A stretch of 64,000 nt of DNA from Alphaproteobacteria bacterium HGW-Alphaproteobacteria-18 (GTDB taxonomy: Bacteria > Pseudomonadota > Alphaproteobacteria > Caulobacterales > Hyphomonadaceae). Made by a program: the position numbers and the translations under genes. The notes beneath the pieces are model-generated. The model worked only from the letters and a program-made list of their open reading frames with translations, was not told the origin of the DNA and made no database searches. The stretch lies in the NCBI GenBank assembly GCA_002841155.1, contig PHEH01000005.1, forward strand, positions 62,001 through 126,000, in the 5' to 3' direction. Position 1 is the first letter of the stretch. Each line of letters starts with the position of its first letter. Below are positions 11,891 through 34,539 of the stretch, piece after piece.

Positions 11891-11996
11891 TTTGGAAGGC
11901 GCATCAAGGTGGACGCAAAGCCCCTGATCGAAGCCTCTTATGGCGATAAATTGGTCCCGGAACAGGGCGGGCGGGGCGAGGTGCAGGAGGATTGGC

Positions 11997-16594: not shown

Positions 16595-16596
16595 GC

Positions 16597-17538: not shown

Positions 17539-18566
17539 TGCCTTTTAATCCGACTGAGACCAAGCTTTACATTCAGGATGTGACACTGCGCGACGGCATG
17601 CACGCCATCCGCCACCAGTACGGTCTCGATCATGTTCGCAAGATTGCCGCCGCTCTGGATGAAGCCGGGGTAGACGCGATCGAGATCGCCCATGGCGACG
17701 GCCTGAACGGTTCGAGCTTCAATTATGGCTTCGGCGCCCATACTGACTGGGAGTGGATCGAAGCCGTTGCAGATGTTGTCAAGAACGCTGTGTTGACGAC
17801 CTTGCTGTTGCCCGGAATCGGAACGATCGAGGAGCTCAAACACGCTTACAGGCTCGGTGTCCGGTCGGTCCGCGTTGCGACGCACTGTACCGAAGCTGAC
17901 GTTTCAAGACAGCATATCGAAACGGCGCGCGAGCTTGGTATGGACGCGGTTGGTTTCCTCATGATGAGCCACATGGTTGAGCCGGAGAAGCTCGCCGAGC
18001 AAGCCAAGCTGATGGAGAGTTACGGGGCCGGATGCGTCTACGTCACGGACAGTGGCGGCGCGCTCGATATGGACGGGTACACCGCGCGGCTTCAGGCCTA
18101 TGATCGGGTGCTCAAGCCTGAGACGCAGCGCGGTGTCCATGCGCACCACAACCTGTCCCTTGGGGTCGCAAATTCCATTGTTGCAGTTCAGAACGGCGTT
18201 TGCAGGGTGGATGCATCACTCGCGGGAATGGGGGCCGGGGCTGGCAATGCGCCGCTTGAAGTCTTTATCGCGGCCGCCGACCGGAAGGGCTGGAAGCATG
18301 GCTGTGATCTGTTCAAGCTGATGGATGCAGCAGACGAGCTGGTGCGGCCTCTGCAGGATCGTCCGGTCCGGGTGGATCGTGAAACGCTGTCCCTGGGATA
18401 TGCCGGCGTCTACTCCTCTTTCCTTCGCCATTCGGAAAAGGCAGCGGAGCAATATGGCCTCGACACGCGTGCCATCCTCGTCGAGCTTGGCCGTCGGCGC
18501 ATGGTCGGCGGCCAGGAAGACATGATCGTCGATGTCGCGCTCGACCTTGCTGGCAAGCGGGCCTAG
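17538..18566 (+). CDS. mhpE: 4-hydroxy-2-oxovalerate aldolase
   Basis: 342 residues from ATG 17538; a GTG one codon earlier is also possible. The HMGL-like TIM barrel begins [16 protein letters not shown], giving the Arg, Asp and His of the active site, and carries the metal-binding [13 protein letters not shown] later. A C-terminal helical communication domain follows. It splits 4-hydroxy-2-oxovalerate into pyruvate and acetaldehyde, which is passed to the dehydrogenase. It is last in the operon and convergent with the tetR gene, 12 bases apart. Confidence 0.95.
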
Positions 18567-19414: not shown

Positions 19415-19678
19415 CCGATATCTGATTTTGAACTGAAGCGCGCGATATGGGCAGGCCTGCAGATCGACTGATCAGAATATCGACTGACTCGAAATTGTCT
19501 GAGAGTCGGAAGCGACTCCGGTTTCAGAGGCAGACAGGCCCTGTTCAGCCCTGACGGGTTAAAGGAGCGTCCGGCGTTCTGGTTTCCCATGCGGCCGCGG
19601 AGGGCTTCGGCGGCCTCTCAGGCATTCTATCTCATCCCTATCTCTCGAATCCGGCATTTTCGTCCTTCACCTTTTTGC

Positions 19679-19703
19679 GAGTTTGTTTTAGACGTTTGTT
19701 CTA
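19679..19703 (+). promoter_or_regulatory. AACGTTTGTTTTAG-type motif, double site C
   Basis: Two overlapping copies: GAGTTTGTTTTAG (19,679-19,691) and TAGACGTTTGTTCTA (19,689-19,703). The second is a TAGA-N7-TCTA inverted repeat. It lies 60 bases before the GTG of the dioxygenase gene, where a repressor would act. Confidence 0.45.
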
Positions 19704-19761
19704 CAGTGAGTTTGAGCCGGGGGACGGCGCAGAGGTGGTCGCAGACCGAGGGAGGATTGAC

Positions 19762-20667
19762 GTGAGCATTGATGACATAAGGTACAGGCGTCTTGGTTAC
19801 ATCGCCCTGACAGTAACGGATCTGGAGAAATCCCGGCATTTCTACGAAACGCTTGTCGGGCTCAAGATGGACGAAGAACCGGACGGAAAGCGGGCTTTCC
19901 TCAGGTGCAGCGACCGCCACCATGATCTGGTTATCTACAGCGGCGCCGAGCCCGCCCTCAAGCGGGTGGCCTGGCAGATGGAGAGTGACCGGGCGCTCGA
20001 GGCCGTAAGGGCGCATTTTGTCAGGCTTGGCATTGAGTGCGTGGCGGTCAGCCCGGAAGAGCAGTCCGATTTGGGCATCGGAGAAGCTTTCAGGATGTCT
20101 GAGCCGACGACCGGTGTGACGTTCGAGTTCTACAGCAGTATGGCGGACGCGCCATCCTCCTATCAGACCACCCACACGAAGATCGCGCGTCTCGGTCATC
20201 TCGTCCTGAGTAGTCCTGATCGGAAGGCCACGGAAAAATTCCTGATGGAAGAAATGAATTTCCGCGTGTCTGACCGCATTGATGGCATGGTCACATTCAT
20301 GCGCTGTTTCCCGAACCCCTTTCACCACTCCTTTGGCGTAGGTTCTGCAAAGCATCCGGGGCTGAATCACCTGAATTTCATGGTCACGGAGATGGGGGAT
20401 ATCGGCAAAGCGAACAACCGGATGAAGAAGGCTGGCGTGCCGATCGTGTTTGGTATCGGAAAGCACCCGCCTTCGGAGTCGGTCTTCATTTATTTCCTCG
20501 ACCCGGACGGAATGACCGTCGAGTACAGCTACGGTATGGAGGAGTTTCCGGAACATTCGCCGAGAACGCCCCGTGACCTGCCGGCCTCGCTGGAGTCCAT
20601 TGATTACTGGGAGGGCACGCCGGATCCCAGGATGGCCAAGGTCGGTATTGTTGAGCCGCTGAAATAG
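19762..20667 (+). CDS. Type I extradiol ring-cleavage dioxygenase (VOC superfamily)
   Basis: 301 residues from GTG 19762, preceded by GAGGGAGG; longer starts lack a site. Two VOC domains are visible. The metal triad is His146 (ARLGHLVLS), His203 (LNHLNFM) and Glu254 (MTVEYSYG), the same spacing as in BphC-type catechol 2,3-dioxygenases. It cleaves a catechol next to the diol using Fe(II) and O2, giving a yellow 2-hydroxy-6-oxo-dienoate for the hydrolase at 5,378. It is followed by a ferredoxin and an acyl-CoA dehydrogenase gene in one direction. A truncated paralogue is at 4,827-5,202. Confidence 0.92.
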   Translation: MSIDDIRYRRLGYIALTVTDLEKSRHFYETLVGLKMDEEPDGKRAFLRCSDRHHDLVIYSGAEPALKRVAWQMESDRALEAVRAHFVRLGIECVAVSPEEQSDLGIGEAFRMSEPTTGVTFEFYSSMADAPSSYQTTHTKIARLGHLVLSSPDRKATEKFLMEEMNFRVSDRIDGMVTFMRCFPNPFHHSFGVGSAKHPGLNHLNFMVTEMGDIGKANNRMKKAGVPIVFGIGKHPPSESVFIYFLDPDGMTVEYSYGMEEFPEHSPRTPRDLPASLESIDYWEGTPDPRMAKVGIVEPLK

Positions 20668-20766
20668 GGGACTTGCCGGGGGGGGGTGACGTCTTGGGCG
20701 CGATGTCCCGGATGTGCCCGCTATTCGATGTCCAAACTCGAAGACTTTAAGAGGAGGCGGCGGGGC

Positions 20767-21111
20767 ATGGCCCTGCCGCAGACAGGATACATGCCAAAAA
20801 TTACCGTTGTCGATCATTTGGGAAATGCCCGGATCATAGAGGCTGCTTCTGGCGCATCGCTCATGGAGGCTGGCGTCAAGGCGGGCGTTCCTGACCTGGT
20901 CGCCGAATGCGGGGGTGCCCGCGCCTGTGCGACCTGCCATGTCTATGTTGAGGATGTTTTCTTCGAGAAAGTCGGGCCTGCCGACGACATGGAGCGGGAG
21001 ATGCTTGAATATGCCGTGTCCCCGGTCAGGGCGACCTCAAGATTGTCCTGCCAGATCACAATCAGCGATGAACTGGAAGGGATGACAGTTTCCACGCCCC
21101 CGGCCCAGTGA
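20767..21111 (+). CDS. [2Fe-2S] ferredoxin, adrenodoxin/putidaredoxin type
   Basis: 114 residues from ATG 20767, chosen because AGGAGG is about 9 bases upstream; a later ATG at 20,791 (MPKITVVDHLG) is also possible. Cluster ligands are Cys48, Cys54, Cys57 (ECGGARACATC) and Cys95 (RLSC). It carries electrons from a reductase to an oxygenase, most likely the Rieske dioxygenase at 11,997, as no P450 or other oxygenase partner is seen. Note that it is the plant/adrenodoxin fold, not a Rieske ferredoxin. The reductase is missing from the window. Confidence 0.92.
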   Translation: MALPQTGYMPKITVVDHLGNARIIEAASGASLMEAGVKAGVPDLVAECGGARACATCHVYVEDVFFEKVGPADDMEREMLEYAVSPVRATSRLSCQITISDELEGMTVSTPPAQ

Positions 21112-21181: not shown

Positions 21182-22324
21182 ATGCCCATTCCCATAGAAC
21201 GCCTCGGTCAGGGCGATACTCACGCGATGTTTCGCGATTCCGTGCGGCGTTTCTTCGCTCTGGAGCTTGATCTGGATACCTGGGAACGGGAGCGCCTTAC
21301 GCCGCGCAGCTTCTGGAGGGCGGCGGGCGAGGCCGGTTTGCTGTGTCCTACCGTACCAGAGGCCTATGGTGGTCCAGGGCTCGACTTTTCGTACAATGCA
21401 ATCGTGACGGAAGAACTGACCTATGCAGGATCGTCTGCGAGCCTGCCGCTCCAGTCCGATATCATTGCGGATTATTTCATTCATCTCGGGACCGAAGAGC
21501 AGAAGCGGAAATACCTCCCCGGCATGGTGAATGGATCCCTGATCTCGGCGATCGCTATGACCGAGCCGAGCGCGGGGTCAGACCTTAAATCAATCCGTAC
21601 GCGGGCTATTCGGGATGGCAATGAGTATGTCATCAGTGGCGCAAAGACCTATATCTCCAGCGGCCAGAACGCCGATTTCGTTATCGTGGCTGCAAAGACT
21701 GATCCAGACGGTGGAGCGCAGGGTATCAGCCTGCTGGTCGTTGATGCAGACAGCGCGGGCTTTTCGCGCGGGCGCAAGCTCGACAAGATCGGCCAGCATT
21801 CTGCAGATACGTCCGAGCTGTTCTTCGACGAGGTGCGCGTACCGGTTGATGCATTGATTGGCGGGGAAGGGCGTGGGTTTGCCGCGATCATGACCCTGAT
21901 GCCGCAGGAGCGTCTCTCGCAGGCGATTATGGGGCAGGCAAGCGTTCAGCGCGCGATGGACGATACAGTAAGGTTTACGTCTGATCGTCGGGCATTTGGC
22001 CGGTCGGTGTTCGACTTCCAAAACACGCAGTTCGTGCTCGCCGAAATTGCGACAGAGCTCCAGGTTGGCTGGTCCCACCTCGACTGGGCCATCAACCGAC
22101 ACGTTGCGGGCAAGCTGACAGCTGTAGAGGCGTCGGCCGCGAAGCTGTGGCACACCGAAACGCAGTGGGCGTCTCTCGACAAGTGCCTGCAGCTCCACGG
22201 CGGGGCCGGCTATATGGAAGAATATCCCATTGCCCGCATGTGGCGCGATGCCCGGGTGCAAAGGATCTATGGCGGCACGTCCGAGATCCTCAAGCTGGTC
22301 ATTGGCCGCTCGCTGAAGACTTAG
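21182..22324 (+). CDS. Acyl-CoA dehydrogenase (paralogue 2)
   Basis: 380 residues. Motifs are AMTEPSAGSDLKSIR, GAKTYISSGQ, RRAFGRSVFDFQNTQF and LHGGAGYMEEYPIARMWRD, with the Glu before Tyr-Pro as expected catalytic base. It has the same length and many shared stretches with the dehydrogenase at 6,413. It lies downstream of the dioxygenase and ferredoxin genes, 70 bases on, and is tail to tail with a kinase gene (6 bases between stops). Kinase and acyl-CoA dehydrogenase together recall the LvaA/LvaC type of hydroxyacyl-CoA handling. Only a weak ribosome-binding site precedes ATG 21182. Confidence 0.9.
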   Translation: MPIPIERLGQGDTHAMFRDSVRRFFALELDLDTWERERLTPRSFWRAAGEAGLLCPTVPEAYGGPGLDFSYNAIVTEELTYAGSSASLPLQSDIIADYFIHLGTEEQKRKYLPGMVNGSLISAIAMTEPSAGSDLKSIRTRAIRDGNEYVISGAKTYISSGQNADFVIVAAKTDPDGGAQGISLLVVDADSAGFSRGRKLDKIGQHSADTSELFFDEVRVPVDALIGGEGRGFAAIMTLMPQERLSQAIMGQASVQRAMDDTVRFTSDRRAFGRSVFDFQNTQFVLAEIATELQVGWSHLDWAINRHVAGKLTAVEASAAKLWHTETQWASLDKCLQLHGGAGYMEEYPIARMWRDARVQRIYGGTSEILKLVIGRSLKT

Positions 22325-22330
22325 AGCCTT

Positions 22331-23404
22331 CTAGCGCAGGCCCAGTGCGCCGATCATGTCCAGGTCAATCGCCGCCTCAAGCGCGCGAACAGCTGCCGTA
22401 TCTGTTACTTCAACAGTCTGCATATCGTAGGGGTTCATGACGCTGAAGCCCATGAGGTGCATTTGATTCTGCCGGTAGGAGAGGAAGATTTCCTCCTCAC
22501 CCGGTGCATCGGAGACGCCGCACTCGACGAGGACGGACCGGTAGAGCTTGAGCAGCTCTCTCTCATTCTCGCGGCGGCTTTGCGTATCCAGCGCGCAGTT
22601 GATCATTTCCGCGTGGTCGTGACCCGGCGTTCCGGGGAAGGTGCACTGCCAGTCCATGAAGCCAGGTGAGCCGTCGGGATGAAAATAGAGATTGCCCACA
22701 TGGCAGTCCCCGTGAAGCAGTGTCTGCGGCCCCTGAGCATTGATTTTCCATAGCCGCTCAGTCGCTGCCAGAGCAAACTCCCGATCCGGCAGGACGTGCG
22801 GGATCATGCTGGCATAGGAGCGCTGGTTGACGTGATCCCAGTGCTTTTCGCGATAAAGGTAACGCACGAATGCCCGCGCCGGCTCCGCCCACTCGCGATA
22901 CGCTTCCAGCCGCGGATCTTTCCAGAAATGGGCATGAAGCCTGGCCTGCGCCGTGATGATTTCGGCCACCGTATCAACGCTGACATCCTGGGTAATGTGG
23001 CCAAACCTTATTCCGCGTTGGCGCATGTCCTCCATGATCAGAACGCCCTGCTTGGCCTCCTCATCAACCCCTGCAAAATAAACGGCGGGAACCGGTACCG
23101 GAACTTCGGGTGCAAGTTCAGCATAGAAGCGGGCTTCCTGAATGAGAGCTGCCCAGACGCGCTTGCGCATGATTTCGTCGAAGCCGCCCTTAATATAGAC
23201 TGAGCTCGGTGCGCCCTCTGGCTTTTGGGCATAGGTCAGGTTGAATTGAGCGGAGGAGGAGGTGCCAGACCGCTCGCCCTCCCGTTCAACGCTGCTGATC
23301 TTGATGCCGGGGAAGCGGTCGGAGAGTGCGCGGCTCAGCCACTCCGGCGTCACTTCATCGAGCGAGAGGGGGAGAGCCAGTGACTTCGTGAGATTGAGAT
23401 TCAT
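22331..23404 (-). CDS. APH/EcKL-like small-molecule phosphotransferase (kinase 1)
   Basis: 357 residues from ATG 23404 (AAAAGGGG upstream). The protein-kinase-like fold is clear: Lys72 in VYIKGG, an N-lobe Glu at about residue 90, a hinge VLIMEDM, the catalytic loop HGDCHVGN (Asp233) and the metal-binding Asp251 in MDWQ. Such kinases phosphorylate hydroxyl groups of small molecules (aminoglycosides, choline, ecdysteroids) or 4-hydroxyacyl-CoAs (LvaA, ACAD10/11). It sits between an acyl-CoA dehydrogenase and a flavin monooxygenase gene, which favours a catabolic intermediate over antibiotic resistance. A similar kinase is at 28,805. A motif site lies 66 bases upstream. Confidence 0.85.
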   Translation of the reverse strand: MNLNLTKSLALPLSLDEVTPEWLSRALSDRFPGIKISSVEREGERSGTSSSAQFNLTYAQKPEGAPSSVYIKGGFDEIMRKRVWAALIQEARFYAELAPEVPVPVPAVYFAGVDEEAKQGVLIMEDMRQRGIRFGHITQDVSVDTVAEIITAQARLHAHFWKDPRLEAYREWAEPARAFVRYLYREKHWDHVNQRSYASMIPHVLPDREFALAATERLWKINAQGPQTLLHGDCHVGNLYFHPDGSPGFMDWQCTFPGTPGHDHAEMINCALDTQSRRENERELLKLYRSVLVECGVSDAPGEEEIFLSYRQNQMHLMGFSVMNPYDMQTVEVTDTAAVRALEAAIDLDMIGALGLR

Positions 23405-23469
23405 GTATGGCCCCTTTTGAATTGACTGAACCAGCTTAAGCAAGTGCAGGGCGGCGCGCAAGCATTTCA

Positions 23470-23485
23470 AAACGTTTGTTTTAGT
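23470..23485 (+). promoter_or_regulatory. AACGTTTGTTTTAG-type motif, site D
   Basis: AAAACGTTTGTTTTAG has AAAAC/GTTTT arms around GTTT, the most symmetrical member of the set. It is 66 bases upstream of the kinase 1 start (minus strand). Confidence 0.45.
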
Positions 23486-23569
23486 CGTGCGGAGGGATTG
23501 TCAGCAGGAATCGCGATCCTTGTTTGCGGCTGAGCCTGCGCGATGCTTCTATCTGAACTCTGTTTCAGA

Positions 23570-24775
23570 TCATGCGCTCAGATATCGCGTGCCGTTCAGA
23601 AGCGAGGGCGTTTCAAGCGCAGCCGGTGTCCAGAGCAGTTTCCGTAACCGGGCCGGATCACGGATGCGCTCGCGCAACTGCTGGATATCCCAGTCCAGGC
23701 GCTGCGGATTGGTGGAGTCGAAGCAGAGGCGCAGGCTTTCAATCGAGACCGGGGAGGTGACGTCAAGGAACACCTGTCTGCGGGCCTCCGAGTAGCGGTC
23801 GAGAATGCTGTCATCCACATCGCCCGCGATGGTTGCCCCGAGCGCTTCAATTAAAGCAAATGCATCATAGAGTCCTCCCATGAGGCCGAAGCCGCTCGTG
23901 GGGTTTGTCAGGTGCGCCGCATCGCCCGCCAGGAGGGCGCGCCCTCTGCGATAGGTCGGCGCCGTTCTCTGATGCATGTTATAGGGCGAAAAATGTTTGA
24001 GCCGGTATTTTCCATCTCCAGGCAGAGCCGCATTCGCAAATGACGGCATACGGCCCAGAACGTGCGCCTCAGGCAAGGTGGCGCCTTCTGAATAGGTAAA
24101 GCGCCACAGGCCGGGTTCGTTGAGTTTATAGACGACAGCGCCATAGACCGGGTCGATCAGGTAACAGGACTGCCAGCCATGCGCGCCGAAGTCGAAATAG
24201 ATGTCGGTCGCAACAAAGCGCCTGTCCCAGGAGAAACCTTCCAGCGATAATCCCATGGCGCGGCGCACAGCGCTTCTCCCGCCGTCAGCCCCGACCACCC
24301 AGCCGCAGTCTATGGTGGTTCCGCCGCCGGGCTGTTCGACGCGGATGCATGCTGCGTCCGATTGCAGGTCCACAGCGGTGAGCCGGCTGTTCCAGTGAAC
24401 CCGGGCTGTCGCCTGGTGCTGGAGGTGTTCCAGCAGAACGCCTGCGAGCAAATCCTGGCCAAGTGTCAGCGCAAAAGGCGTGTCCGTGTCATCCCTGATT
24501 GCTGAATGGTCAAAGACGACCTGTTCGCCTGTGGCATGGACGCGCCAGCAGCGTTCCTGTTCGACTGAGCCTGCGGCGAGCATCGCATCCAAAAGGCCGT
24601 GGGCCTTAAGCGCATGCAGAATTGGCCATGCATAGCCGATAGCGCGCGGGGAATAGACGATACCTGCTTCGGCTTCGAACAGATCGACCTGAATGCCTTG
24701 CCTTGCAAGGCCCAGCGCAATCATCAGGCCCACCGGTCCCCCGCCGGCGACAACAACATTCTCCGGCATGGGCAT
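23570..24775 (-). CDS. FAD-dependent aromatic monooxygenase (PHBH/MhpA-like)
   Basis: 401 residues. FAD motif VVAGGGPVGLMIALGLARQG near residue 7, the DG motif VVGADGGRSAVRRAMG in mid-protein, and the second FAD motif RGRALLAGDAAHLTNPTSGFGL. It would hydroxylate a phenolic ring with NAD(P)H and O2, for example making the catechol for ring cleavage. A second ATG at 24,769 has better spacing from GGAGAGA than the first. Upstream and in the same direction as kinase 1, with about 165 bases between. It is complete, unlike the relative at the left window edge. Confidence 0.88.
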   Translation of the reverse strand: MPMPENVVVAGGGPVGLMIALGLARQGIQVDLFEAEAGIVYSPRAIGYAWPILHALKAHGLLDAMLAAGSVEQERCWRVHATGEQVVFDHSAIRDDTDTPFALTLGQDLLAGVLLEHLQHQATARVHWNSRLTAVDLQSDAACIRVEQPGGGTTIDCGWVVGADGGRSAVRRAMGLSLEGFSWDRRFVATDIYFDFGAHGWQSCYLIDPVYGAVVYKLNEPGLWRFTYSEGATLPEAHVLGRMPSFANAALPGDGKYRLKHFSPYNMHQRTAPTYRRGRALLAGDAAHLTNPTSGFGLMGGLYDAFALIEALGATIAGDVDDSILDRYSEARRQVFLDVTSPVSIESLRLCFDSTNPQRLDWDIQQLRERIRDPARLRKLLWTPAALETPSLLNGTRYLSA

Positions 24776-25061
24776 TCTCTCCGAATTGGCGCCAGTGAGA
24801 CGAGGGTTGCCAGATCAGGCCTGTACCGGCTGCGTTTGGCTGCAGGCGCATTGCCGGAGCGTAGCCCTCTAAACAGAAAGTACAATCATTTTAATTTAAA
24901 TATTCATATCACTTAGTGTCCTGTAATAAATAAAGTTTTTAAAAAATTCCAACAAAACCAGATAAAGCAATTGATCTATCCCGGCTTGCCTCCGGAGGGC
25001 TCGGGTGATTGTGATGTGCTTCGGGAACTTTATGAAATCGCCAGGGAGGGCGGGGAGCGCA

Positions 25062-25820
25062 ATGAGAAAGTTTGGCTCAATCGAGGTTGAGATCGAGACG
25101 GGGTTTGCCCTGGTTGCATTCAACCGGCCCGACAGCATGAACTCGATCGTCCCGCAAATGCTCGCCGAGTTTGACGACTGTATGGCGGGCCTCGCGGCAG
25201 AGCCGGGCGTAGAGGTGGTGATCCTGACCGGACGGGGGCGAAACTTTTGTGCCGGCCTGAATGTGGAAATGCTCAAGAGCGACGGGGCTGAAGCCGTTGC
25301 AGGATTTAATCCGGCAAAGACAATTTCTGACTGGCCCGGGCCTGTCATCGCCGCTGTGCAGGGAGCCGTGGCGACTGGCGGCTTCGAGATCACTGTCGCC
25401 TGCGATATAATTATTGCCGGGGAATCGGCGCGGTTTATCGACACGCATTCGCGTGTGGGGCTGTTGCCGGGCTGGGGCCTCAGCGCGCGCCTTCATCATG
25501 CGATCGGTCTCTACCGCGCCAAGGAGCTGGAGCTCACCGGGCGCCCCCTGCATGCGCGGGAGGCCTCGGACTGGGGACTCGTAAATCGCGTGGTCCCTGA
25601 CCGGGAGCTCCTCGATTCCGCGCGCGCGATGGCCCGCATGATCCTTGCCGGCGCGCCGCAGATGGCGGCCCCGACAAAAGCGCTCATCGATGGCAACAGC
25701 CTGCGCACGCTCGAAGAGGCACTCGAGTTCGAGCGCGAAACTTCGAAAAAGGCGAATACCGGTCTGGTGCCGGGGTCTCTTAGCTTTAATCATGTGGGCG
25801 GCGGCAAGTTTTCGAAATAG
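25062..25820 (+). CDS. Enoyl-CoA hydratase/isomerase family protein
   Basis: 252 residues from ATG 25062, after GGGGAG. Crotonase motifs: GRNFCAGLNVEM for the first oxyanion strand and QGAVATGGFEITVACD for the second, then RFIDTHSRVGLLPGWGLS. It hydrates or isomerises a CoA thioester. It stands alone with a large AT-rich upstream region (24,776-25,061), with no partner in the same direction until the transporter 460 bp later. It differs clearly from the crotonase at 3,972, so the two probably act on different intermediates. Confidence 0.88.
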   Translation: MRKFGSIEVEIETGFALVAFNRPDSMNSIVPQMLAEFDDCMAGLAAEPGVEVVILTGRGRNFCAGLNVEMLKSDGAEAVAGFNPAKTISDWPGPVIAAVQGAVATGGFEITVACDIIIAGESARFIDTHSRVGLLPGWGLSARLHHAIGLYRAKELELTGRPLHAREASDWGLVNRVVPDRELLDSARAMARMILAGAPQMAAPTKALIDGNSLRTLEEALEFERETSKKANTGLVPGSLSFNHVGGGKFSK

Positions 25821-26284
25821 TCTGTACCCTGCATTTGTGGCAGCCGGCCTTCGCCCGCTATAAAACGTAAGAACTTTTTCTGCGTTTCTCATGCCTCTCC
25901 GCATCATTGCGCCGTGTGTGCAAAAAGTGTTGTTGCGGGATCTGACAGGTCCGAAGAGGGGCGTGTAAGATCCTAATAATAATGAAAAAAATGCCTCGAA
26001 GCGGGGCCGGAGAGCTAAAGCTTTCCGGGCTGGTCTGGGCTGGCGGCGTGCAGGAGTTTCCCCGGGGCGCGTTGGCCAGCAATTAAAACGTTTGCTTGAC
26101 CCGAATTTGCGTTACCCATACTTCTGGGCAATCAGAAGGGGGCGGGGCGAACCGGGGCGGAAGATTCCGGTCTGCGCGTCAGCTGATGTTGATAGCCAGC
26201 ATTTGCCGGATGCGCAGTCCGGCAAATGCACGGGCTGGTGCATTACAAGGCGCGATGTTCGCCAGAAAAGGTCTCGGTAAGATA
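25821..26284. other. Intergenic region before the MFS transporter gene
   Basis: About 460 bp. Open frames run through part of it but lack a recognisable domain. It holds motif site E at 26,083-26,099 and a GCTTGACC box that may belong to the transporter promoter. Confidence 0.4.
26083..26099 (+). promoter_or_regulatory. AACGTTTGTTTTAG-type motif, site E
   Basis: TTAAAACGTTTGCTTGA, sharing AAAACGTTTG with site D. It lies about 190 bases before the transporter start. Confidence 0.35.
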
Positions 26285-27607
26285 ATGACTTCGCAAATTG
26301 TGTCAGTCGACAATGCCGGTTCGAGACCGAGGCCGACGAAGCTGCATGCCTGGTACACGGTCGGGCTTCTGACGGTTCTGTTCGTCCTCTCTTTTATTGA
26401 TCGCAGTATCCTGGCGTTGCTCGCCGAACCGGTCGGACAGTCGCTCGGTCTGGCAGACCGTCAGCTCGCACTCCTGCTCGGCTTTGGTTTCGCCGTGGTC
26501 TATTCGTTTGGCGGGCTGCCCCTGGCACAGCTTGTCGACACGCGTGACAGGCGCCTTGTCGTCGCTGTCGGGGTTGCTGTCTGGAGCCTGGCAACTGTTC
26601 TCTCCGCTTTTGCGGTGGACTTCTGGAGTCTCCTGATTCTTCGCTGCGGCGTCGCGCTTGGCGAGGCCGTCCTGACGCCCGCCGCTGTTTCCCTGATAGC
26701 TGACCTCTTCACGAAGGAAAGGCGGAGCCTCCCAATGTCCGTCTACCTGTCCGTGGGCAGCTTCATGTCCATAGGTTCATACACCCTCGGGGCAATGGCC
26801 TATGACCTCGCTGCAGGCGTAAGCAGCGCGACCGGGCTCGAGCCATGGCAGCTCACATTCGTGCTGGTTGGTCTCCCAGGGCTTGTTCTCGCGCTTGTTT
26901 TTTTCTCGACAGCCGCCAACCCGCCCAGAGGGGAGTCACTGGCGATCGGCCAGGACGATTCCTCCTGGAGTGCCTTTTTCAGCTATATCAGGCAGCGGGG
27001 TATGTTTTTTGTACCGCTTCTGACAGCGGCGGGCGTCTACAGTTTCTTTGCGCTGGCGGTCGTTACGTGGCTTCCGACACTTCTCGTGCGGGAGGAGGGG
27101 CTCAGCCTTTCGAGGGCGGGCTATTTGCTTGGATGGATCGGTATTCCGGCAGCCCTGATCGGTAACTTCCTGTGGCCGCAGGTCGCGATGAAAATAGACG
27201 CCAAATGGCCGAAAAGAGGGGCTGTCACTGTACTGATGATAGCGGGATGCGCCGTTGGCCCGGCGTTTGCGGCAGGCATTTCTTCCGGCGGTGTGGGCCT
27301 GTACGTTTGCCTCGCCATTGGTATCCTGTTCGGCTCTGCTTTCGCTGTCATGCCGCCAATTGCGTACCAGCAGTTTGGTCCGATCCGGATGAGGGCGCGC
27401 CTGGCGGCCGTGAACCTCCTTGTCATCGCGCTGCTCGGATATGGATTGGGGCCACTTGTGGCGGTTGAGCTTGGGGCGCTGATCCGGGGCGGCGAGCACA
27501 GTCTCGGCGTCGGCCTTGTATGGCTGTCATTGCTGACGACGCCTTTCCTGATTTTGCTTACCTTCCTCGCTACACGTCAATCCCGATTTGCTGAAGACCA
27601 GGACTAG
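26285..27607 (+). CDS. Major facilitator superfamily transporter
   Basis: 440 residues from ATG 26285, where the hydrophobic core begins soon after; the open frame extends further upstream without a clear ribosome-binding site. About twelve membrane spans can be counted. The loop-2/3 motif GGLPLAQLVDTRDRR matches the MFS motif A (GxLaDrxGRR), and FIDRSILALL in span 1 is typical of the spinster/aromatic-acid carriers. It probably takes up the island's substrate. A phosphatase gene follows 23 bases later, perhaps in the same transcript. Confidence 0.87.
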   Translation: MTSQIVSVDNAGSRPRPTKLHAWYTVGLLTVLFVLSFIDRSILALLAEPVGQSLGLADRQLALLLGFGFAVVYSFGGLPLAQLVDTRDRRLVVAVGVAVWSLATVLSAFAVDFWSLLILRCGVALGEAVLTPAAVSLIADLFTKERRSLPMSVYLSVGSFMSIGSYTLGAMAYDLAAGVSSATGLEPWQLTFVLVGLPGLVLALVFFSTAANPPRGESLAIGQDDSSWSAFFSYIRQRGMFFVPLLTAAGVYSFFALAVVTWLPTLLVREEGLSLSRAGYLLGWIGIPAALIGNFLWPQVAMKIDAKWPKRGAVTVLMIAGCAVGPAFAAGISSGGVGLYVCLAIGILFGSAFAVMPPIAYQQFGPIRMRARLAAVNLLVIALLGYGLGPLVAVELGALIRGGEHSLGVGLVWLSLLTTPFLILLTFLATRQSRFAEDQD

Positions 27608-27630
27608 GTCGAAAACGGAGCCAGACTATC

Positions 27631-28416
27631 TTGTTGAATTGCGCGCCGAATTTCCGGGATATCGGAGGTCTTCCGACAGCTGACGGACGACAGGTCAAAC
27701 CCTCCAGGCTGTTCCGTTCAGAGGCCATCCTTGAGCCCTGTCCGGCCGATATGGAATGCCTCCGTTCGCTGAGGTTAGGGCTGGTTCTGGATATCCGGAG
27801 TGCGTCGGAGGCGCGCGACTTCCCGAACACGGCTGTTCAGGAGGTTTGTGCGGATGTCCGCCAGCTTAACGTCGGCACCGATGTGAAAGCCAGAGGCACC
27901 TTTTGGGATGTGCTTGCGCAGGATTGCTCTCCTGCGGGTGTTCAGGCGCTGGTTCACAGGATCTATCGGGCGATACCCGTGGCCGTCGCCCCGGCCCTTT
28001 CGGTGTACTTTGATCATGCCGCCGGGCACCCGGCGCCGACGCTTATTCACTGCACAGCCGGCAAGGATCGAACCGGTGTGGCGGTCGCTTTACTGCTCGA
28101 GATACTCGGCGTGACGCGGGAGAGTATTGTTGCGGACTACCTCGCCACCCAGCAGACCATTTCCGGTGACAAGATCGAAAACGGTGCCCGCAAGTTTGCA
28201 GAGATTGCCGGCCGTATACTGCCGGATGAGAGCCTGCGGATGCTTGCGGGTGTGCGCGCAGACTTTCTGGAGCAGAGCTATGCCTGGATCGAACGAAAGC
28301 ATCTCTCGACGGAGGCCTTCCTCCGGATGTATGCGGGGCTGACCGAGGAAAGATTGGAAGCCATGCGCGGGGCGCTGCTGGAGCCCGCCGCGCATTCAGA
28401 AAAGGCGATGTTGTAA
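27631..28416 (+). CDS. Tyrosine/lipid phosphatase (MptpB-like, Y_phosphatase3 family)
   Basis: 261 residues from a TTG start with GGAG upstream. The N-terminal NFRDIGGLPTADGRQVKPSRLFRS and the P-loop HCTAGKDRTG, with Cys141 and Arg147, define the family; Asp54 in VLDIRS is conserved too. Relatives remove phosphate from Tyr, Ser/Thr or phosphoinositides. There is no tyrosine kinase nearby, but two small-molecule kinase genes are in the island, one directly downstream. A role in removing phosphate from a metabolite is possible but unproven. Confidence 0.85.
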   Translation: MLNCAPNFRDIGGLPTADGRQVKPSRLFRSEAILEPCPADMECLRSLRLGLVLDIRSASEARDFPNTAVQEVCADVRQLNVGTDVKARGTFWDVLAQDCSPAGVQALVHRIYRAIPVAVAPALSVYFDHAAGHPAPTLIHCTAGKDRTGVAVALLLEILGVTRESIVADYLATQQTISGDKIENGARKFAEIAGRILPDESLRMLAGVRADFLEQSYAWIERKHLSTEAFLRMYAGLTEERLEAMRGALLEPAAHSEKAML

Positions 28417-28804
28417 GAGGCAGTGCTTTCCGGTGCCTGTACGCAGGTTCAAGATGACGCGTGCCTGACGATCCGCCCTCTGAATTTCCCTGCTCCACTC
28501 AGCTGCGTGCCTGGAAGGCGATATCCCGGAGCTGCAGAGCACAACGCCGAGCATCGTCGCTTCCCCGAGGCCGGAGACAACGACTGTCAAACCGGGCAGG
28601 GGGGCTGTCCGCTCAACGAAAAACATACACAGAGAATGCCCGTACATCGCCTCTCTCTGTTGCGCTGCGCGCATCGGGATCGGCAGAAAATTGCAGAAGA
28701 TGTGGTCTCTCAGGTGCCGGCTTCAGCAACAAGGTTGACTTTATGCCGCCCCAAAGCCACTCATAAATTTAGTCAGTTGTTTTAAATTTGCGAGGATGCT
28801 TGTT
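28417..28804. other. Intergenic region before kinase 2
   Basis: About 390 bp without a supported gene. It becomes AT-rich near 28,760-28,795, where motif site G lies. Confidence 0.4.
28768..28787 (+). promoter_or_regulatory. AACGTTTGTTTTAG-type motif, site G
   Basis: TTTAGTCAGTTGTTTTAAAT, sharing GTTGTTTTA with the set. It is 18 bases before the kinase 2 start and is a weaker match. Confidence 0.3.
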
Positions 28805-29869
28805 ATGAGTGACGATGCGCTGCCACGTGCCTTCGATGACTTTACAGCCGATTGGTTCACCAAGGCGCTTTCAGCGAGATTTCCGGGTGTGAAAGTCGTC
28901 GGTTTCTCCCGCACCGGTGAGCGAATTGGTACTTCCGCGTCGTGTAAATTTTCACTCGATTATGCAGATACCGGAGCCGTGGGTAATCCGCCCGCCTCTG
29001 TCTATATAAAGGGCGGATTTACGGAAAAGCAGCGAAATCGTTATTGGGTTGTTTTGCAACAGGAAGTCCGTTTCTTCAACGCAATGGCGCAAGACGTGCC
29101 GATGAATATTCCGGATTGTTATTTCGCCGCGTGTGACGCCGACAAGCAGGGACTGACGATGCTCGAAGACATCGTTCAGACTCGTGGCGCGAGATTTGGC
29201 AACTGGGGCGCGCTCACTGTGGATGAGGTCGCGGCGTTGCTTGAGCAGTTCGCTTCCATGCACGCCCGATGGTCGGAGGATCCGCGCCTTGGCGACCTCG
29301 CCGGATTCGAAAAACCTCAACGCGAGTTCTTCCAATATGTGCTTCGGGACAAGCATTGGGAGGAATTGAAGACACGTCAGTTCGGACAACGCCTTGAGCA
29401 GACTTTTCCGGACGTCCAGCTTTTGCGGGATGCCTTGCAGCGCATGTGGGAATTGAATGATGCTGCGCCAAGAACCCTTTGCCATGGCGACGCTCACGGT
29501 GGAAACATGTTCTTCGAGCGTGACGGGAAACCGGGTGTTCTCGACTTCCAGCTCTATTTTGCCGGCACATACATGCATGATGTCTCATGGTTGATCGTGA
29601 GCGCGCTCCCGATCAAGGATCGGCGAAATGAAGAGCAGCGCCTTCTGCGGCATTACCTTGATGCGGCGCGAGCCGCCGGAATGGAAGTGTACTCGTTTGA
29701 GCAGGCTTGGCTGGTTTACCGGCAACAGATGGCCCATGCCGTCCCAAGCGGCGCGTGCAATCCAATTGAGTCGGGGCCGATCGAAATGATCAACGCTGCA
29801 GGCGAACTTGTGACGACAGCGGCCGAAGACCTTGATGTGCTTGGCGCGCTAGGCATTCCCCGCCGGTGA
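28805..29869 (+). CDS. APH/EcKL-like small-molecule phosphotransferase (kinase 2)
   Basis: 354 residues from ATG 28805, where GAGG is well spaced; an ATG at 28,796 is too close to it. Kinase features: SVYIKGG with the ATP-binding Lys, LTMLEDI hinge, the catalytic loop CHGDAHGGNMFF and a metal-binding LDFQ in place of DWQ. It resembles kinase 1 (22,331) in length and order of motifs, so they are paralogues that have diverged. It is preceded by the phosphatase gene. Its substrate is probably a hydroxylated pathway intermediate or its CoA ester; antibiotic resistance is less likely in this setting. Confidence 0.85.
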   Translation: MSDDALPRAFDDFTADWFTKALSARFPGVKVVGFSRTGERIGTSASCKFSLDYADTGAVGNPPASVYIKGGFTEKQRNRYWVVLQQEVRFFNAMAQDVPMNIPDCYFAACDADKQGLTMLEDIVQTRGARFGNWGALTVDEVAALLEQFASMHARWSEDPRLGDLAGFEKPQREFFQYVLRDKHWEELKTRQFGQRLEQTFPDVQLLRDALQRMWELNDAAPRTLCHGDAHGGNMFFERDGKPGVLDFQLYFAGTYMHDVSWLIVSALPIKDRRNEEQRLLRHYLDAARAAGMEVYSFEQAWLVYRQQMAHAVPSGACNPIESGPIEMINAAGELVTTAAEDLDVLGALGIPRR

Positions 29870-30030: not shown

Positions 30031-31239
30031 TTATTTGATAGCCTGGGATTTTCGGGCAGCTTCAATGTCATCGTCGCTCCGGCCAAGGCCCTTCAAGATT
30101 TCGCCGGTATGTTCCCCGAGCTTCGGCGCGCGCATCCGGATGGACGGCGGCGATGCTTCGAAGTCTGCAAAGAACCCCGATGTCCGCATCCGTCCGAATT
30201 CGGGATCCTCGGTATCGATGAAGCATTCGGTATGGACGGCCTGCGGATCAGCCATGAACTCTTCGACGCTGTTCACGGGGGCAAGGGGGACGCCATACTC
30301 ATCGGCGAGAGCAATGACTTCCGCCTTGGTCATCTTTGAAGCTGGTTCTTCCAGCTCCTTCCAGAAGTCGGCGTAGTTGAAGATGCGCGACCAGGACGTG
30401 TTGTAGCGCTTATCCTCCAAAAGGTCTTCGCGCCCGAAAATCCGGCAGAGCCCTTTGAACTGCGGATCCAGCTGCACGTGTCCCATTACGCTACCATCTT
30501 TCAGTCGCAGGGGATGGTGGATCTTTATGTTGGGAATCTTCTGGACGTCCTTTGTCTGGAACAGGAAGTTATTCAGCAAGTCTGGCATCAGGAAGGCGGC
30601 GTAAGCTTTCATCAGCGAGAGGGAAACTTTCTGCCCCTTGCCGCCTGCGCGTTCCCGGTGCAGCAGAGCGGCGATGATCGCATTGCACGCCAGGATCGAG
30701 GCCACCTTGTCGGCAATGATATGCGGTATGGGCGCGGGATCTTCGGGTGAGCCCATCACCGGCATCGCGCCGCTGAGAGCCTGAATGACATGATCGTAGG
30801 CAGGTTTGTCCTTGTACGGCCCATCTTCACCAAAACCCGACAGTCCGGCATAGATAAGCCGAGGATTGCGTTGCCGGAGCGCTTCATAGCCCAGTCCCAA
30901 GCGTTCCATTGTCCCGGGGCGGAAGTTTTCGAGAACGACATCCGCGCCGGCGATCAGGTCGGCTGCGATGGTCCGTCCCTCATCCGACTTGAGATCCAGG
31001 CAGATGCTCTTCTTGTTTCTGTTGAAGAGGGAGAAATAGGCTGACATCCCTTCATGCATCGGGTGGTTGCCCCGCATGGGGTCGCCGGCCGTCGTTTCGA
31101 TCTTGATGACTTCTGCTCCAAGGTCGCCCAGCATCTGGCCGGCGAATGGGCCTGACACCATGGTGGCAACTTCGATGACACGGAGGCCCGCACAAGGACC
31201 CTTTCCTGCGTTTTCCTGATCGTTGCTGCGCGTTGTCAT
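30031..31239 (-). CDS. Class III (CaiB/BaiF) acyl-CoA transferase
   Basis: 402 residues, the usual size. The family start (AGLRVIEVATMVSGPFAGQMLGDLGAEVIKIE), FRPGTMERLGLGYEAL, and LIYAGLSGFGEDGPYKDKPAYDHVIQALSG are all present; the catalytic Asp is expected in the IIADKVAS segment. It moves CoA between carboxylic acids. As no CoA ligase is seen in the window, it may activate the acid released by the meta-cleavage hydrolase or the starting substrate. The palindrome TAGTAC-N4-GTACTA lies 88 bases upstream. Divergent from the SDR/MaoC pair. Confidence 0.92.
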   Translation of the reverse strand: MTTRSNDQENAGKGPCAGLRVIEVATMVSGPFAGQMLGDLGAEVIKIETTAGDPMRGNHPMHEGMSAYFSLFNRNKKSICLDLKSDEGRTIAADLIAGADVVLENFRPGTMERLGLGYEALRQRNPRLIYAGLSGFGEDGPYKDKPAYDHVIQALSGAMPVMGSPEDPAPIPHIIADKVASILACNAIIAALLHRERAGGKGQKVSLSLMKAYAAFLMPDLLNNFLFQTKDVQKIPNIKIHHPLRLKDGSVMGHVQLDPQFKGLCRIFGREDLLEDKRYNTSWSRIFNYADFWKELEEPASKMTKAEVIALADEYGVPLAPVNSVEEFMADPQAVHTECFIDTEDPEFGRMRTSGFFADFEASPPSIRMRAPKLGEHTGEILKGLGRSDDDIEAARKSQAIK

Positions 31240-31628: not shown

Positions 31629-32390
31629 ATGCGAGGGTTAGCGGGCCGGGTTCACGTCATTACGGGAGGCTATGGTGGGATCGCCATGGCTACTGCAAAA
31701 GCGCTCGCAGAGCAGGGCGGCACAGTCGTCCTGACCGGGCGGAACCAGGAGAAGGGCGAAGCCGCTGTCGGACACCTGAAGCAGGAAACCGGCGCCGTGG
31801 CGCACTTCTACCAACTGGATGTTTCGGATGCAGCGGCCGTATCTGAGGTGGCGGCCCGCATCAACAGAGAGGTCGGTCAGGTTTACGGACTGGTTGCCAA
31901 CGCAGCGGCCATTTTCCCCGGAGCCGCTTTCGACCTCGCCCCGGAGGACTGGCGCAGGACCTTTGCTGTTACCCTGGACGGAAGTTTCTATTGCGCGCAG
32001 GCGTTTGGGCGGCTGATGAAGGATGTGGGCGGTTCGATCGTTCTTGTCTCATCCGTTGCGGCGTCCAAAGCGATCTGGCCGCCGCCTGTTGTTTCCTATT
32101 CGGCGTCGAAGGCGGCATTGTCCCATCTTGCAGCTGTGCTCGGCGTGGAGTGGGCCCAGCACGATATCCGGGTGAACGCTATAGAACCCGGGCATATCGA
32201 GACGGAGCTGACGCTCAGGGCGAAGGAGCGCCGCCCGGAGATGATGGAGAAGTGGATTGCCGACGTCCCGCAAGGGCGCCTGATCACACCTGAAGAGATT
32301 GGGGAGATCATTTGCTTCCTGCTTTCAGACCTTTCCAGCTCCATGACAGCGTCGGTCCTGACGGCCGATGGTGGCTTTTCGCGTCGCTGA
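31629..32390 (+). CDS. Short-chain dehydrogenase/reductase (classical)
   Basis: 253 residues; GGAGG precedes the ATG. The cofactor motif reads ITGGYGGIAMA, a slight variant of TGxxxGIG, then LVANAA and a complete active site with Ser in VLVSSVAAS and YSASK. C-terminal ASVLTADGGFS fits. It would oxidise a hydroxyacyl-CoA or a cis-dihydrodiol; the latter step is needed after the Rieske dioxygenase and no other clear candidate is seen except the atypical SDR at 3,161. The MaoC gene follows after 34 bases, so the pair may work on CoA esters. Confidence 0.9.
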   Translation: MRGLAGRVHVITGGYGGIAMATAKALAEQGGTVVLTGRNQEKGEAAVGHLKQETGAVAHFYQLDVSDAAAVSEVAARINREVGQVYGLVANAAAIFPGAAFDLAPEDWRRTFAVTLDGSFYCAQAFGRLMKDVGGSIVLVSSVAASKAIWPPPVVSYSASKAALSHLAAVLGVEWAQHDIRVNAIEPGHIETELTLRAKERRPEMMEKWIADVPQGRLITPEEIGEIICFLLSDLSSSMTASVLTADGGFSRR

Positions 32391-32424
32391 TGCTTGGCGC
32401 ACCTATTCGGAGAGAGTCAGGATT

Positions 32425-32916
32425 ATGCTGAAAGCAGACTATTCAGAGCTCGAATTGCTCGTGGGCCGGGAGATCGGGCCGTCTGGTTGGATTGAGGTAT
32501 CGCAGAACCGCATCGATACCTACGCCGATGCCGTCAGCGATCACAACTGGATTCATGTTGACCGGGAAAGGGCCAGGGCGGCCTTTGGCGGAACGATCGC
32601 TCACGGACTTCTGGTTCTCTCTTTGGCGCCGCCCATGGCGCAAGAGATGCTCCATATCGGCGGTGTTGCAGCTGACCTGAACTATGGCTTCGAGAAGGTA
32701 CGTTTTGTCAGGGTGGTGAAGGGCGGAGACCGGGTGCGACTGTGGCTGAAGGTCCTTAAAGTCAGTACACGTGGCAGCGGTAAACTGCTGCGCATGGAAT
32801 ACCGTCTGGAGCTTGAAGAGGGGCTGCAGACGGCCATTGTGGCCGACTGGGCTTTCCTCCTGTTCCCGGAAACGGTCGCTCTGGCGGAACAGGCATTCAG
32901 GGAACAAGCTCAATGA
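32425..32916 (+). CDS. MaoC-like enoyl-CoA hydratase ((R)-specific type)
   Basis: 163 residues from ATG 32425 with AGGA upstream. The hot-dog fold hydratase motif is seen as DAVSDHNWIHVD...AAFGGTIAHGLLVLSL, giving the Asp/His catalytic dyad. It hydrates trans-2-enoyl-CoA to the (R)-3-hydroxyacyl-CoA. Together with the SDR just upstream it could carry out two successive beta-oxidation steps. It is the last cargo gene before the integrase, which faces it tail to tail about 100 bp away. Confidence 0.9.
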   Translation: MLKADYSELELLVGREIGPSGWIEVSQNRIDTYADAVSDHNWIHVDRERARAAFGGTIAHGLLVLSLAPPMAQEMLHIGGVAADLNYGFEKVRFVRVVKGGDRVRLWLKVLKVSTRGSGKLLRMEYRLELEEGLQTAIVADWAFLLFPETVALAEQAFREQAQ

Positions 32917-33018: not shown

Positions 33019-34308
33019 TCAGCCCCGTTGTTTGGCTGCAGTGATCTTGAGCAGGGTTTTTGCCCAGAGTTCGAGCGCTGCGCGTTTCTCCGCAGCGTAG
33101 TCATACCGGTTATATATCTGGGTGACCGGAGAGCCGAGCGGGGTGTGGTTCAGAATGCGGGCGATGACCTCGCCTCGAACGCCGCACCGCTCTGACGCCA
33201 TCATGCTCGCGCCCGTGCGCCGCAGGTCGTGGGCGGTGCCGTTGTCGATGTCGAGCTTCTCCCGGATCCGGCTCATGGCGCGGGTGACGACGTGACGATC
33301 GACCGGCCCGCTGCCATGGATCGCCGGAAACACATGCCCCCGGTAATTGGCGACGAGCCGGGGCAGGGGTTTTTCGATATCGCCGGGTACCTCTGTTGCC
33401 GTTGCGAGCGCGAGGGCGCGCCGGATGAGTTGCTGGCTGAGCGGGGAGAGAGGAACATGGTGGGACCTGCGGTTCTTCGACCGCTCCGAGGCGATGACCC
33501 ATGACCGGGTCGTCCAGTCAAGTTCATCGGTATGCATGCCGATCACTTCACCCGCCCGCTGCAGGGTCGTCAGGCAGAGCTGGAGTGCGATCGCGACAGG
33601 TTCAGAGACGCCAAGCCTCGCGCCCACCTTGGCCGCCGACCAGGTTTCCCAGAGCAGGCGGATTTCCGCTTCACTGAAGACGCGGTCGCGCGACTTATGC
33701 TGATAGAGTTGGGGAAACTGGGCGGGGTTCATCTCGATCCATTCTTCCCGGATGCCAAAATTATAGATCCGCCGCAGCACTGCATGGGCATAGTTTGCTG
33801 TCCGGTTGCCGGAGCCTTCGGCGACCTCTCGGACACAGGCGCGCACTTCGCCGCGCTTAAGGTCCTGCAATGGACGCTTCGCCAGTTTCGGCGCGAGGTG
33901 ATTTCGCCAGACCCCGGACTCCATGATATTGGTCTGTTTTGTGCGCTGGGCGGCTTCGGGCGAGGCAAAAAACGCTGCGGCGAGGTCTTCGACCGTACGC
34001 TCTGCGGCGATGGCCTCTGCTTTCTCAACCTTCCTGACGGCTGCCGGATCACCGCCACTGACGGCAGCGGCGAGCGCCTGGATGGCCCGGTCCCGGGCTT
34101 CGGCGAGCGAGAGGGCGGGATACCTGCCGAGGGAAAGTCTGTTTCGCTTGCCGCTCTTTGTCCGGTAGCGCAGCGACCACATCTTTGAGCCGTTCGTGCC
34201 AACCCGGAGCTCCAGCCCTTCAACGACTGAATCTGTAACGGTGATGCGCTCGCCGGGTTTCGGTTTGATGGTTTCGACGAAACGCGCTGTCATATTCTGT
34301 GGCATCAT
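33019..34308 (-). CDS. Tyrosine-type site-specific integrase (DUF4102/P4-like)
   Basis: 429 residues from ATG 34308, which follows GGGAGAGA; the frame stays open to 34,527 but that lead has no family character. The N-terminal Arm-DNA-binding domain (TVTDSVVEGLELRVGTNGSK...LSLGRYPALSLAEARD) is followed by a SAM-like core-binding domain and the catalytic domain: Arg in TTLQRAGEV, HDLRRTG, LNHTPLG and the nucleophile Tyr in YNRYDYAAEKR. It integrates or excises the island at a tRNA 3' end. The gene starts about 230 bases from the tRNA-Arg fragment at 34,540, the usual layout. All catalytic residues are kept, so it may be active. Confidence 0.95.
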   Translation of the reverse strand: MMPQNMTARFVETIKPKPGERITVTDSVVEGLELRVGTNGSKMWSLRYRTKSGKRNRLSLGRYPALSLAEARDRAIQALAAAVSGGDPAAVRKVEKAEAIAAERTVEDLAAAFFASPEAAQRTKQTNIMESGVWRNHLAPKLAKRPLQDLKRGEVRACVREVAEGSGNRTANYAHAVLRRIYNFGIREEWIEMNPAQFPQLYQHKSRDRVFSEAEIRLLWETWSAAKVGARLGVSEPVAIALQLCLTTLQRAGEVIGMHTDELDWTTRSWVIASERSKNRRSHHVPLSPLSQQLIRRALALATATEVPGDIEKPLPRLVANYRGHVFPAIHGSGPVDRHVVTRAMSRIREKLDIDNGTAHDLRRTGASMMASERCGVRGEVIARILNHTPLGSPVTQIYNRYDYAAEKRAALELWAKTLLKITAAKQRG

Positions 34309-34539
34309 ATTCTCTCCCTTGGGACCCGCCGAGGGACTTCTGACCCCCAGACGATCGGATTTCAGCCCGGCGGCCTCATACAGGGGGTCAAAGGACCCCG
34401 GGTCCCATTTGATCGCTGCTTGAAGCAAAACGCCGTGAAACCTAAGGGAGCACAAATTGTACAATAATTCAATATAAACAAGGGTTATTGTGAGCGCCTC
34501 GCAACCCATCGAAACGCAATGAAACAACCAAAAATTGCG
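34309..34539. other. Region between integrase gene and attachment site
   Basis: About 230 bp, AT-rich around 34,450-34,500. It must hold the integrase promoter and arm-type binding sites; I could not assign individual sites. Confidence 0.4.

Follow-up and report, generated by a model that had tools for sequence, protein, structure and literature searches.

EcKL kinases (PF02958) are known mainly as insect hormone and detoxification enzymes. Here we report a pair of them, KIN1 and KIN2, in a ring-degradation island of Alphaproteobacteria bacterium HGW-Alphaproteobacteria-18, an association that is real, recurrent and partly new. The stretch of DNA analysed (the window) is 64,000 nt long and corresponds to positions 62,001-126,000 of contig PHEH01000005.1 (C25) in a genome of 3.88 Mb. 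Like the described EcKLs, KIN1 and KIN2 exceed the profile cut-off and carry the HGDxHxGN and DxQ motifs; unlike them, they are bacterial, lie within catabolic clusters and recur as a pair. A second point of comparison is provided by LvaA/LvaC of Pseudomonas putida and mammalian ACAD10/ACAD11, in which, as at this locus, an ATP-dependent kinase of APH fold stands in a context of acyl-CoA catabolism; many of the kinases studied here have oxidoreductase and CoA-activating genes nearby. However, the window kinases are of the EcKL type, the acyl-CoA dehydrogenases (ACADs) of the window lack the HCMR motif and the catalytic Asp, and the genome's true pair of this kind is located elsewhere, on contig C3. 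The HpeHI dikinase of hydroxyphenylethanone catabolism is also a kinase acting in a bacterial aromatic pathway, but it is two-component and belongs to another protein family (PMC12167813), whereas Pfam finds only APH/EcKL domains in KIN1 and KIN2. Finally, meta-cleavage pathways with an HsaD/BphD-type hydrolase have in common with the island the Rieske dioxygenase, extradiol dioxygenase, hydrolase, hydratase, aldolase and acetaldehyde dehydrogenase; the island differs in adding a relative of the ACMSD decarboxylase, a pair of ACADs (ACAD2 and ACAD3), two kinases and a phosphatase. A sequence-only reading of the locus, which had joined its two kinases and four ACADs in an LvaA/LvaC-type step, was partly confirmed in what it observed and partly supported in how it interpreted it.

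The two kinases are as follows.
22331..23470, minus strand: KIN1, EcKL/APH-type small-molecule kinase (PF01636 5.4e-18, PF02958 1.6e-13), with a likely start ATG at 23404
28796..29869, plus strand: KIN2, paralogous EcKL/APH-type kinase (PF01636 2.1e-17, PF02958 2.1e-13)

Against a curated EcKL cut-off of 22, KIN1 scored 51.1 and KIN2 50.7 bits; the APH scores were higher still (66.1 and 64.1), and both models were over their Pfam cut-offs. The claim that these are APH/EcKL-like kinases with intact catalytic loops was borne out (HGDCHVGN...MDWQ in KIN1 and HGDAHGGN...LDFQ in KIN2), and HGDxHxxN and DxQ are invariant in a 10-row kinase alignment, two rows of which are the window's own. KIN1 stands at the position first assigned to it (22,331), and KIN2, first placed at 28,805, has an open frame running from 28796. 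The two proteins are 41% identical, and by sequence comparison their pairing is more than chance: they are mutually closest among the own-genome kinases compared, the genome having 15 APH-type places, and similar pairs are found in other genomes. By blastp they match each other at 39.7% (E ~1e-82), while the next own-genome kinase reaches 27-31% (E ~1e-21; 12 of the 13 other places compared) and five (L001, L002, L003, L006 and L012) gave no match to either at E 1e-3. Four further APH-type kinases lie within 21 kb of one another on contig C14 (C14:248420-268957), none of them close to KIN1 or KIN2.

The AlphaFold model of KIN1, built on a 10-sequence alignment (pLDDT 83.8, pTM 0.82), has a kinase-class fold. 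It resembles the folds of APH, choline kinase and N-acetylhexosamine kinase, but these matches are weak (over the top ten rows, TM relative to the model is 0.38-0.51; the best E is 1.6e-05) and generic, and they name no substrate. Grouping with true antibiotic or choline kinases, which the sequence-only reading had held to speak against itself, was not seen in the PDB sequence searches: no characterised enzyme of either kind was present among the matches to E 10 (13 for KIN1 and 8 for KIN2), and KIN2 matched one chain named aminoglycoside phosphotransferase-like protein at 0.0014. With KIN2 as the sole query, viral contigs yielded no kinase match. A literature search on 9FSG returned no paper, and in a title-level search, outside which most subscription journals fall, no paper was recognisable as describing bacterial EcKL kinases in catabolism.

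Recurrence of the pair was apparent from a kinase-alignment search of 101 genomes of the family, eight of which gave a match at E<=1e-100. Six of these eight hold two kinases, 5-22 kb apart and in opposite orientation; G450 and G417 have KIN2 alone. At E<=1e-60, at least two matches were present in each of the seven genomes behind seven of the eight related kinase loci, on one contig in four of the seven; in G490, one of the two kinases (KIN1) is split over two frames. Such kinases are rare: at this threshold, the 385 genomes searched in the class gave matches in two, counting the own genome, and the 147 of the genus of G487 likewise in two, both found earlier. In a 39-row tree, which held no aminoglycoside or choline kinase reference and left out the five own-genome kinases without a blastp match, the two-frame KIN1 of G490 and two Croceicoccus fragments, a KIN1 clade (10 rows, support 100/99) drew members from Phenylobacterium, Sphingomonas, Nocardioides and other Hyphomonas, and a KIN2 clade (8 rows, support 100/99) from Sphingomonas, Phenylobacterium, a betaproteobacterium and Hyphomonadaceae. 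Near the KIN2 clade, but in no settled order, fell the KIN2-like kinases from three genomes each of Nocardioides and Hyphomonas. Judged by these similarities, relatives of KIN1 and of KIN2 share clusters in Hyphomonas, Sphingomonas and Nocardioides that have ring-cleavage genes in common, an occurrence that is new. If this is true, an EcKL pair in bacterial ring-degradation clusters of two phyla would imply a catabolic role, and would offer a tractable bacterial model, for the family.

The kinases recur with many of the same neighbours. We compared gene content across 11 cluster pieces from 10 genomes by reciprocal best hits, in which paralogues may merge: kinases were present in all 11, the hydrolase, the CoA transferase and the CoA ligase in nine each, Rieske alpha and beta subunits and the amidohydrolase in eight, ACAD2 and ACAD3 in six, and the hydratase, acetaldehyde dehydrogenase and aldolase in five. 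Neighbours were counted for 25 kinases of both lines, leaving out L051 and L054 (36-40% identity), L031 (on the contig of L050) and G482. The nearest CoA transferase or ligase was <=1.5 kb away in 16/25 and <=300 bp away in nine, and a short-chain dehydrogenase/reductase (SDR) or alcohol dehydrogenase (ADH) was <=300 bp away in 12; these were the commonest neighbours among the families tested.

In the window, the genes surrounding the kinases, apart from the four ACADs described below, are as follows.
711..2258, plus strand: FAD_binding_2 flavoprotein (fumarate reductase/3-ketosteroid dehydrogenase type)
5306..6220, plus strand: meta-cleavage product hydrolase of HsaD/BphD type, below the HsaD cut-off
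11940..13807, plus strand: two-subunit Rieske ring-hydroxylating dioxygenase
13863..14870, plus strand: amidohydrolase, a relative of ACMSD-type decarboxylases
15803..18566, plus strand: 2-hydroxypentadienoate hydratase type, acetaldehyde dehydrogenase and 4-hydroxy-2-oxovalerate aldolase type
19675..21111, plus strand: extradiol dioxygenase (VOC/BphC type) and 2Fe-2S ferredoxin, upstream of ACAD4
23570..24775, minus strand: FAD-binding_3 monooxygenase (PF01494), upstream of KIN1 on the same strand
25005..25820, plus strand: ECH2, enoyl-CoA hydratase (Pfam/codon scoring), opening the plus-strand run of which KIN2 is the last gene
26096..27607, plus strand: MFS transporter (Pfam)
27631..28416, plus strand: Y_phosphatase3 phosphatase (PF13350 5.8e-54) with an intact HCTAGKDRTG loop, upstream of KIN2 and 380 bp from it
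30031..31239, minus strand: family III CoA transferase, 162 bp from KIN2
31629..32916, plus strand: SDR and MaoC-type dehydratase
33019..34527, minus strand: tyrosine integrase, at the right end of the island

To the right of KIN2 there are thus a family III CoA transferase, an SDR and a MaoC dehydratase, followed by the integrase. The hydratases and SDRs previously ascribed to the island are present, as are all of the meta-cleavage families (Rieske dioxygenase, extradiol dioxygenase, hydrolase, hydratase, aldolase and acetaldehyde dehydrogenase), and the island apparently encodes a complete meta-cleavage pathway beside acyl-CoA chemistry. Three open frames were set aside. A frame at 28423-28785 (120 aa), considered as an analogue of LvaB, was dropped, having no Pfam match to E 1 and being absent from the codon-scored gene calls; the minus-strand frames at 19627-20940 and 25077-25907 were rejected as shadows of the extradiol/ferredoxin and hydratase genes, respectively. 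Steroid, terpenoid and cumate-like substrates were also weighed, and no evidence singled one out.

A protein of Hyphomonas polymorpha PS728 shares 97% identity with KIN1, and the aligned pieces of DNA, separated by short gaps, are 90-98% identical to that species from a point ~30.7 kb to the left of the window up to position 34,585. Just past the integrase, to the right of 34,585, there is a sharp step, the aligned pieces being 71-82% identical. The island is at least 65 kb long, high identity reaching the left edge of the compared stretch, and in H. polymorpha the island is separated from the flanking genes by ~18 kb that has no match to the compared right side. The island appears to be horizontally mobile, and the identity step probably reflects a recent transfer between Hyphomonas species. 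The G449 and H. polymorpha records have identical coordinates and are probably one genome.

We propose, with a probability of roughly 40%, that KIN1 and KIN2 phosphorylate an acid or acyl-CoA intermediate at a hydroxyl group and thereby prime the removal of that hydroxyl. In the pathway as we picture it, a ring compound would be taken up and CoA-activated, and its ring would be desaturated or aromatised, hydroxylated by the Rieske dioxygenase and cut by the extradiol dioxygenase; decarboxylation, hydrolysis and the hydratase-aldolase-acetaldehyde dehydrogenase module would finish the degradation. A neighbouring SDR/ADH may make or expose the hydroxyl on an acid or acyl-CoA intermediate, each kinase would spend ATP to phosphorylate it, and the phosphate would leave later, the ring or chain gaining a double bond, much as in Lva-type phospho-elimination. 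A candidate for the eliminating enzyme is the FAD_binding_2 flavoprotein, a homolog of which follows KIN1 in all three Nocardioides KIN1 loci. The idea that the kinases act on a hydroxyacid from ring cleavage survives in part: the ring-cleavage pathway is there, and a CoA transferase or ligase near 16/25 kinases fits a hydroxy acid or hydroxyacyl-CoA, but the window kinases and ACADs are not of the Lva type. A bolder version, which we consider quite unlikely, would see here a second phosphorylation-elimination route, unrelated to LvaA/LvaC, in which the EcKL pair acts on CoA-activated alicyclic hydroxyls and a fumarate-reductase/ketosteroid-dehydrogenase-type flavoprotein drives phosphate loss toward a meta-cleaved aromatic ring. 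If the priming proposal is true, ATP-dependent hydroxyl activation would be added to the aerobic degradation of cyclic compounds.

Several observations weigh against the proposal that phosphorylation primes hydroxyl removal. No conserved eliminating enzyme was found, and the phosphatase adjoining KIN2 fits reversible masking of a substrate equally well. A betaproteobacterial metagenome-assembled genome has a KIN2 and a second kinase outside the KIN1 clade. Some neighbour labels rest on 25-35% identity, several of the genomes are close relatives, and, because CoA-activating and SDR/ADH genes are common in any catabolic island, their proximity is weak evidence. No ring-cleavage genes (Rieske, extradiol or aldolase) were found in 20 kb each of G450 and G417, the two genomes with KIN2 alone, or in three Phenylobacterium stretches on separate contigs. 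Among more distant EcKL neighbourhoods of the family (11.6-15 kb), 14 of 20 were without any of the 13 other families tested, so that EcKLs are generally not tied to such pathways. Furthermore, in the 25 kb examined of a Pseudosulfitobacter plasmid, ring-cleavage genes like those of the island (identities of 53% for Rieske, 43% for the amidohydrolase and 72% for the aldolase) stand without such kinases, and no Pseudosulfitobacter occurred among the kinase matches, the chromosome of that strain lying outside the search; the kinases thus need not belong to ring cleavage, and the comparison suggests that they act outside it. Finally, two related clusters with two kinases each also contain an LvaC-type ACAD that has both HCMR and Asp (L030 17924-19759, 48.8% identical to the C3 ACAD, and L047 17014-18576, 34%), and LvaA-type kinases lie in the compared stretches of three genomes (G488, 57.5% and 32%; G487, 34%; G486, 37% and 29%). 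The known route therefore stays open for the pathway, and may serve it in some hosts while the EcKLs do something else. On the same grounds, we discarded the view that LvaA/LvaC is unconnected with these pathways.

The alternative that survives best, although we regard it as doubtful, is reversible masking, in which the kinases would trap, solubilise or detoxify a substrate and the Y_phosphatase3 enzyme would remove the phosphate. Insect EcKLs phosphorylate ecdysteroids, which counts in its favour, as do the intact phosphatase gene next to KIN2, relatives of this phosphatase in the G487, G488 and G489 clusters (30-52%), and, on a plasmid of Diaphorobacter, a phosphatase at a distance of ~12 kb from two EcKLs. 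However, enzymes of the Y_phosphatase3 family often act on proteins or phosphoinositides, and tblastn at E<=1e-6 did not find the phosphatase in the pieces from G432, G438, G476, G490, G486, G485, G450 and G417.

The LvaA/LvaC (ACAD10/11) route itself would have KIN1 phosphorylate a 4- or 5-hydroxyacyl-CoA and one of the ACADs of the window, ACAD4 or ACAD1-3, remove the phosphate. These enzymes are as follows.
6392..7555, plus strand: ACAD1, 61% identical to ACAD4, with a catalytic Glu (GGSSEI)
8176..9378, plus strand: ACAD2, which retains a Glu at the catalytic position and probably serves as catalytic subunit in a heteromeric ACAD
9387..10499, plus strand: ACAD3, lacking an acid at the catalytic position; resembles IpdE2 but falls below its cut-off
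21182..22324, plus strand: ACAD4, an ordinary ACAD with a catalytic Glu (YGGTSEI), convergent with KIN1 (Pfam, alignment)

All four ACADs that the sequence-only reading had counted are in the island, but three (ACAD1-3) lie 12-15 kb from KIN1, beyond the 22331-29869 interval to which that reading referred. KIN1 and ACAD4 are tail to tail, as had been said, and 7 bp apart; the genes converge, and so do not form one operon, KIN1 instead following the FAD monooxygenase. In favour of the route are this abutment, the CoA-activating genes near many of the kinases, the LvaC-type ACADs in two related clusters and an LvaA-type kinase of the Sphingomonas colocasiae cluster (L046 2542-3573; 57.5% identical to the own-genome type), which lies between the hydrolase and the amidohydrolase genes. 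The marks specific to ACAD10/11 and LvaC are the HCMR motif and a catalytic Asp (PMC12440821), and two papers, this one included, give as markers of the route an LvaA-type kinase and an ACAD with the catalytic Asp, HCMR and an upstream Arg. On alignment, none of the four window ACADs has HCMR, which is present in the C3 ACAD, and none has the Asp: ACAD1, 2 and 4 have the ordinary Glu and ACAD3 has no acid. The PDB sequences nearest to ACAD4 are 2pg0 and a long-chain ACAD, and ACAD11 is absent from the matches to 1e-60. The kinases gave the same picture, phmmer finding no ACAD11 chain for KIN1 or KIN2 at E<=10, whereas the own-genome LvaA-type kinase on contig C3 matches ACAD11 at 8e-29. In the phylogeny that had been suggested as a check, this kinase did not group with KIN1 and KIN2 and stands across a 100/100 branch from them, long branches being flagged there. 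It adjoins a genuine ACAD11/LvaC-type ACAD (L025 6811-9186) with the motifs GRIHHCMR and IADGPDEVH and a match to human ACAD11 (2wbi) at 3.4e-123; this ACAD has two further matches elsewhere on the contig (C3:28732 and C3:31443). By match alone, motifs aside, the C3 ACAD is matched at E<=1e-100 in 95/101 genomes of the family, so that finding it in this genome is uninformative as to the island.

Adjacency to an ACAD is not conserved either. An ACAD lies <=1.5 kb from 2/25 kinases, both of them copies of this island, and no ACAD was present in any of 20 more distant EcKL neighbourhoods (3.8-15 kb each). Best tblastn hits to ACAD4 itself were obtained only in H. polymorpha and S. colocasiae (46%; 32% for the LvaC-type frame), the latter at least 11 kb from a kinase, and the H. 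polymorpha gene (L027 11147-12285) is in two overlapping frames, which reflects a broken gene or a sequencing error. The LvaA/LvaC-type step by window proteins was not supported in the form first proposed, and from these comparisons the mechanism is unlikely with the window's own ACADs. HCMR and the Asp together offer a simple sequence test that parts LvaC-type from ordinary ACADs in such islands.

We consider it equally improbable that the kinases target phenolic hydroxyls and so activate an aromatic ring, in the way that HpeHI acts on hydroxyphenylethanones. The FAD_binding_3 monooxygenases of the island are of the aromatic hydroxylase type and would suit such a role, but there is no carboxylase among the genes annotated in window positions 1-34.5 kb. 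HpeHI sets a precedent for an aerobic aromatic pathway that begins with ATP-dependent phosphorylation (compare also PMC9618137), but the enzyme is homologous to rifampin phosphotransferase, a different family (PMC12167813). That the kinases are resistance or unrelated housekeeping enzymes merely carried on the island is very unlikely: the APH-type fold, nearest solved folds that include aminoglycoside and choline kinases, and the KIN2 match to an APH-like chain would fit, but the fold matches are weak, the PDB sequence matches hold no characterised kinase of those classes, and the kinases recur with catabolic genes in Pseudomonadota and Actinomycetota.

EcKL genes in tandem or near pairs were also seen on plasmids of Mycobacterium branderi (L055 13721-16059), with a spirocyclase AveC-family gene within ~14 kb, and of Diaphorobacter (L056 14983-19115), where the phosphatase ~12 kb away is a tyrosine phosphatase. 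A plasmid of Sphingobium sp. TomTYG65 (L079 13949-31468) carries an EcKL-like kinase and a Y_phosphatase3 relative ~16 kb apart in a region of P450, amidohydrolase and CoA-ligase genes. The words 'kinase' and 'phosphotransferase' are absent from the main text of a paper on saponin-degrading Sphingobium (PMC10653915). In Paraburkholderia sprentiae (L058 14830-17137), an EcKL annotated as ecdysteroid 22-kinase adjoins a spirocyclase AveC-family gene.

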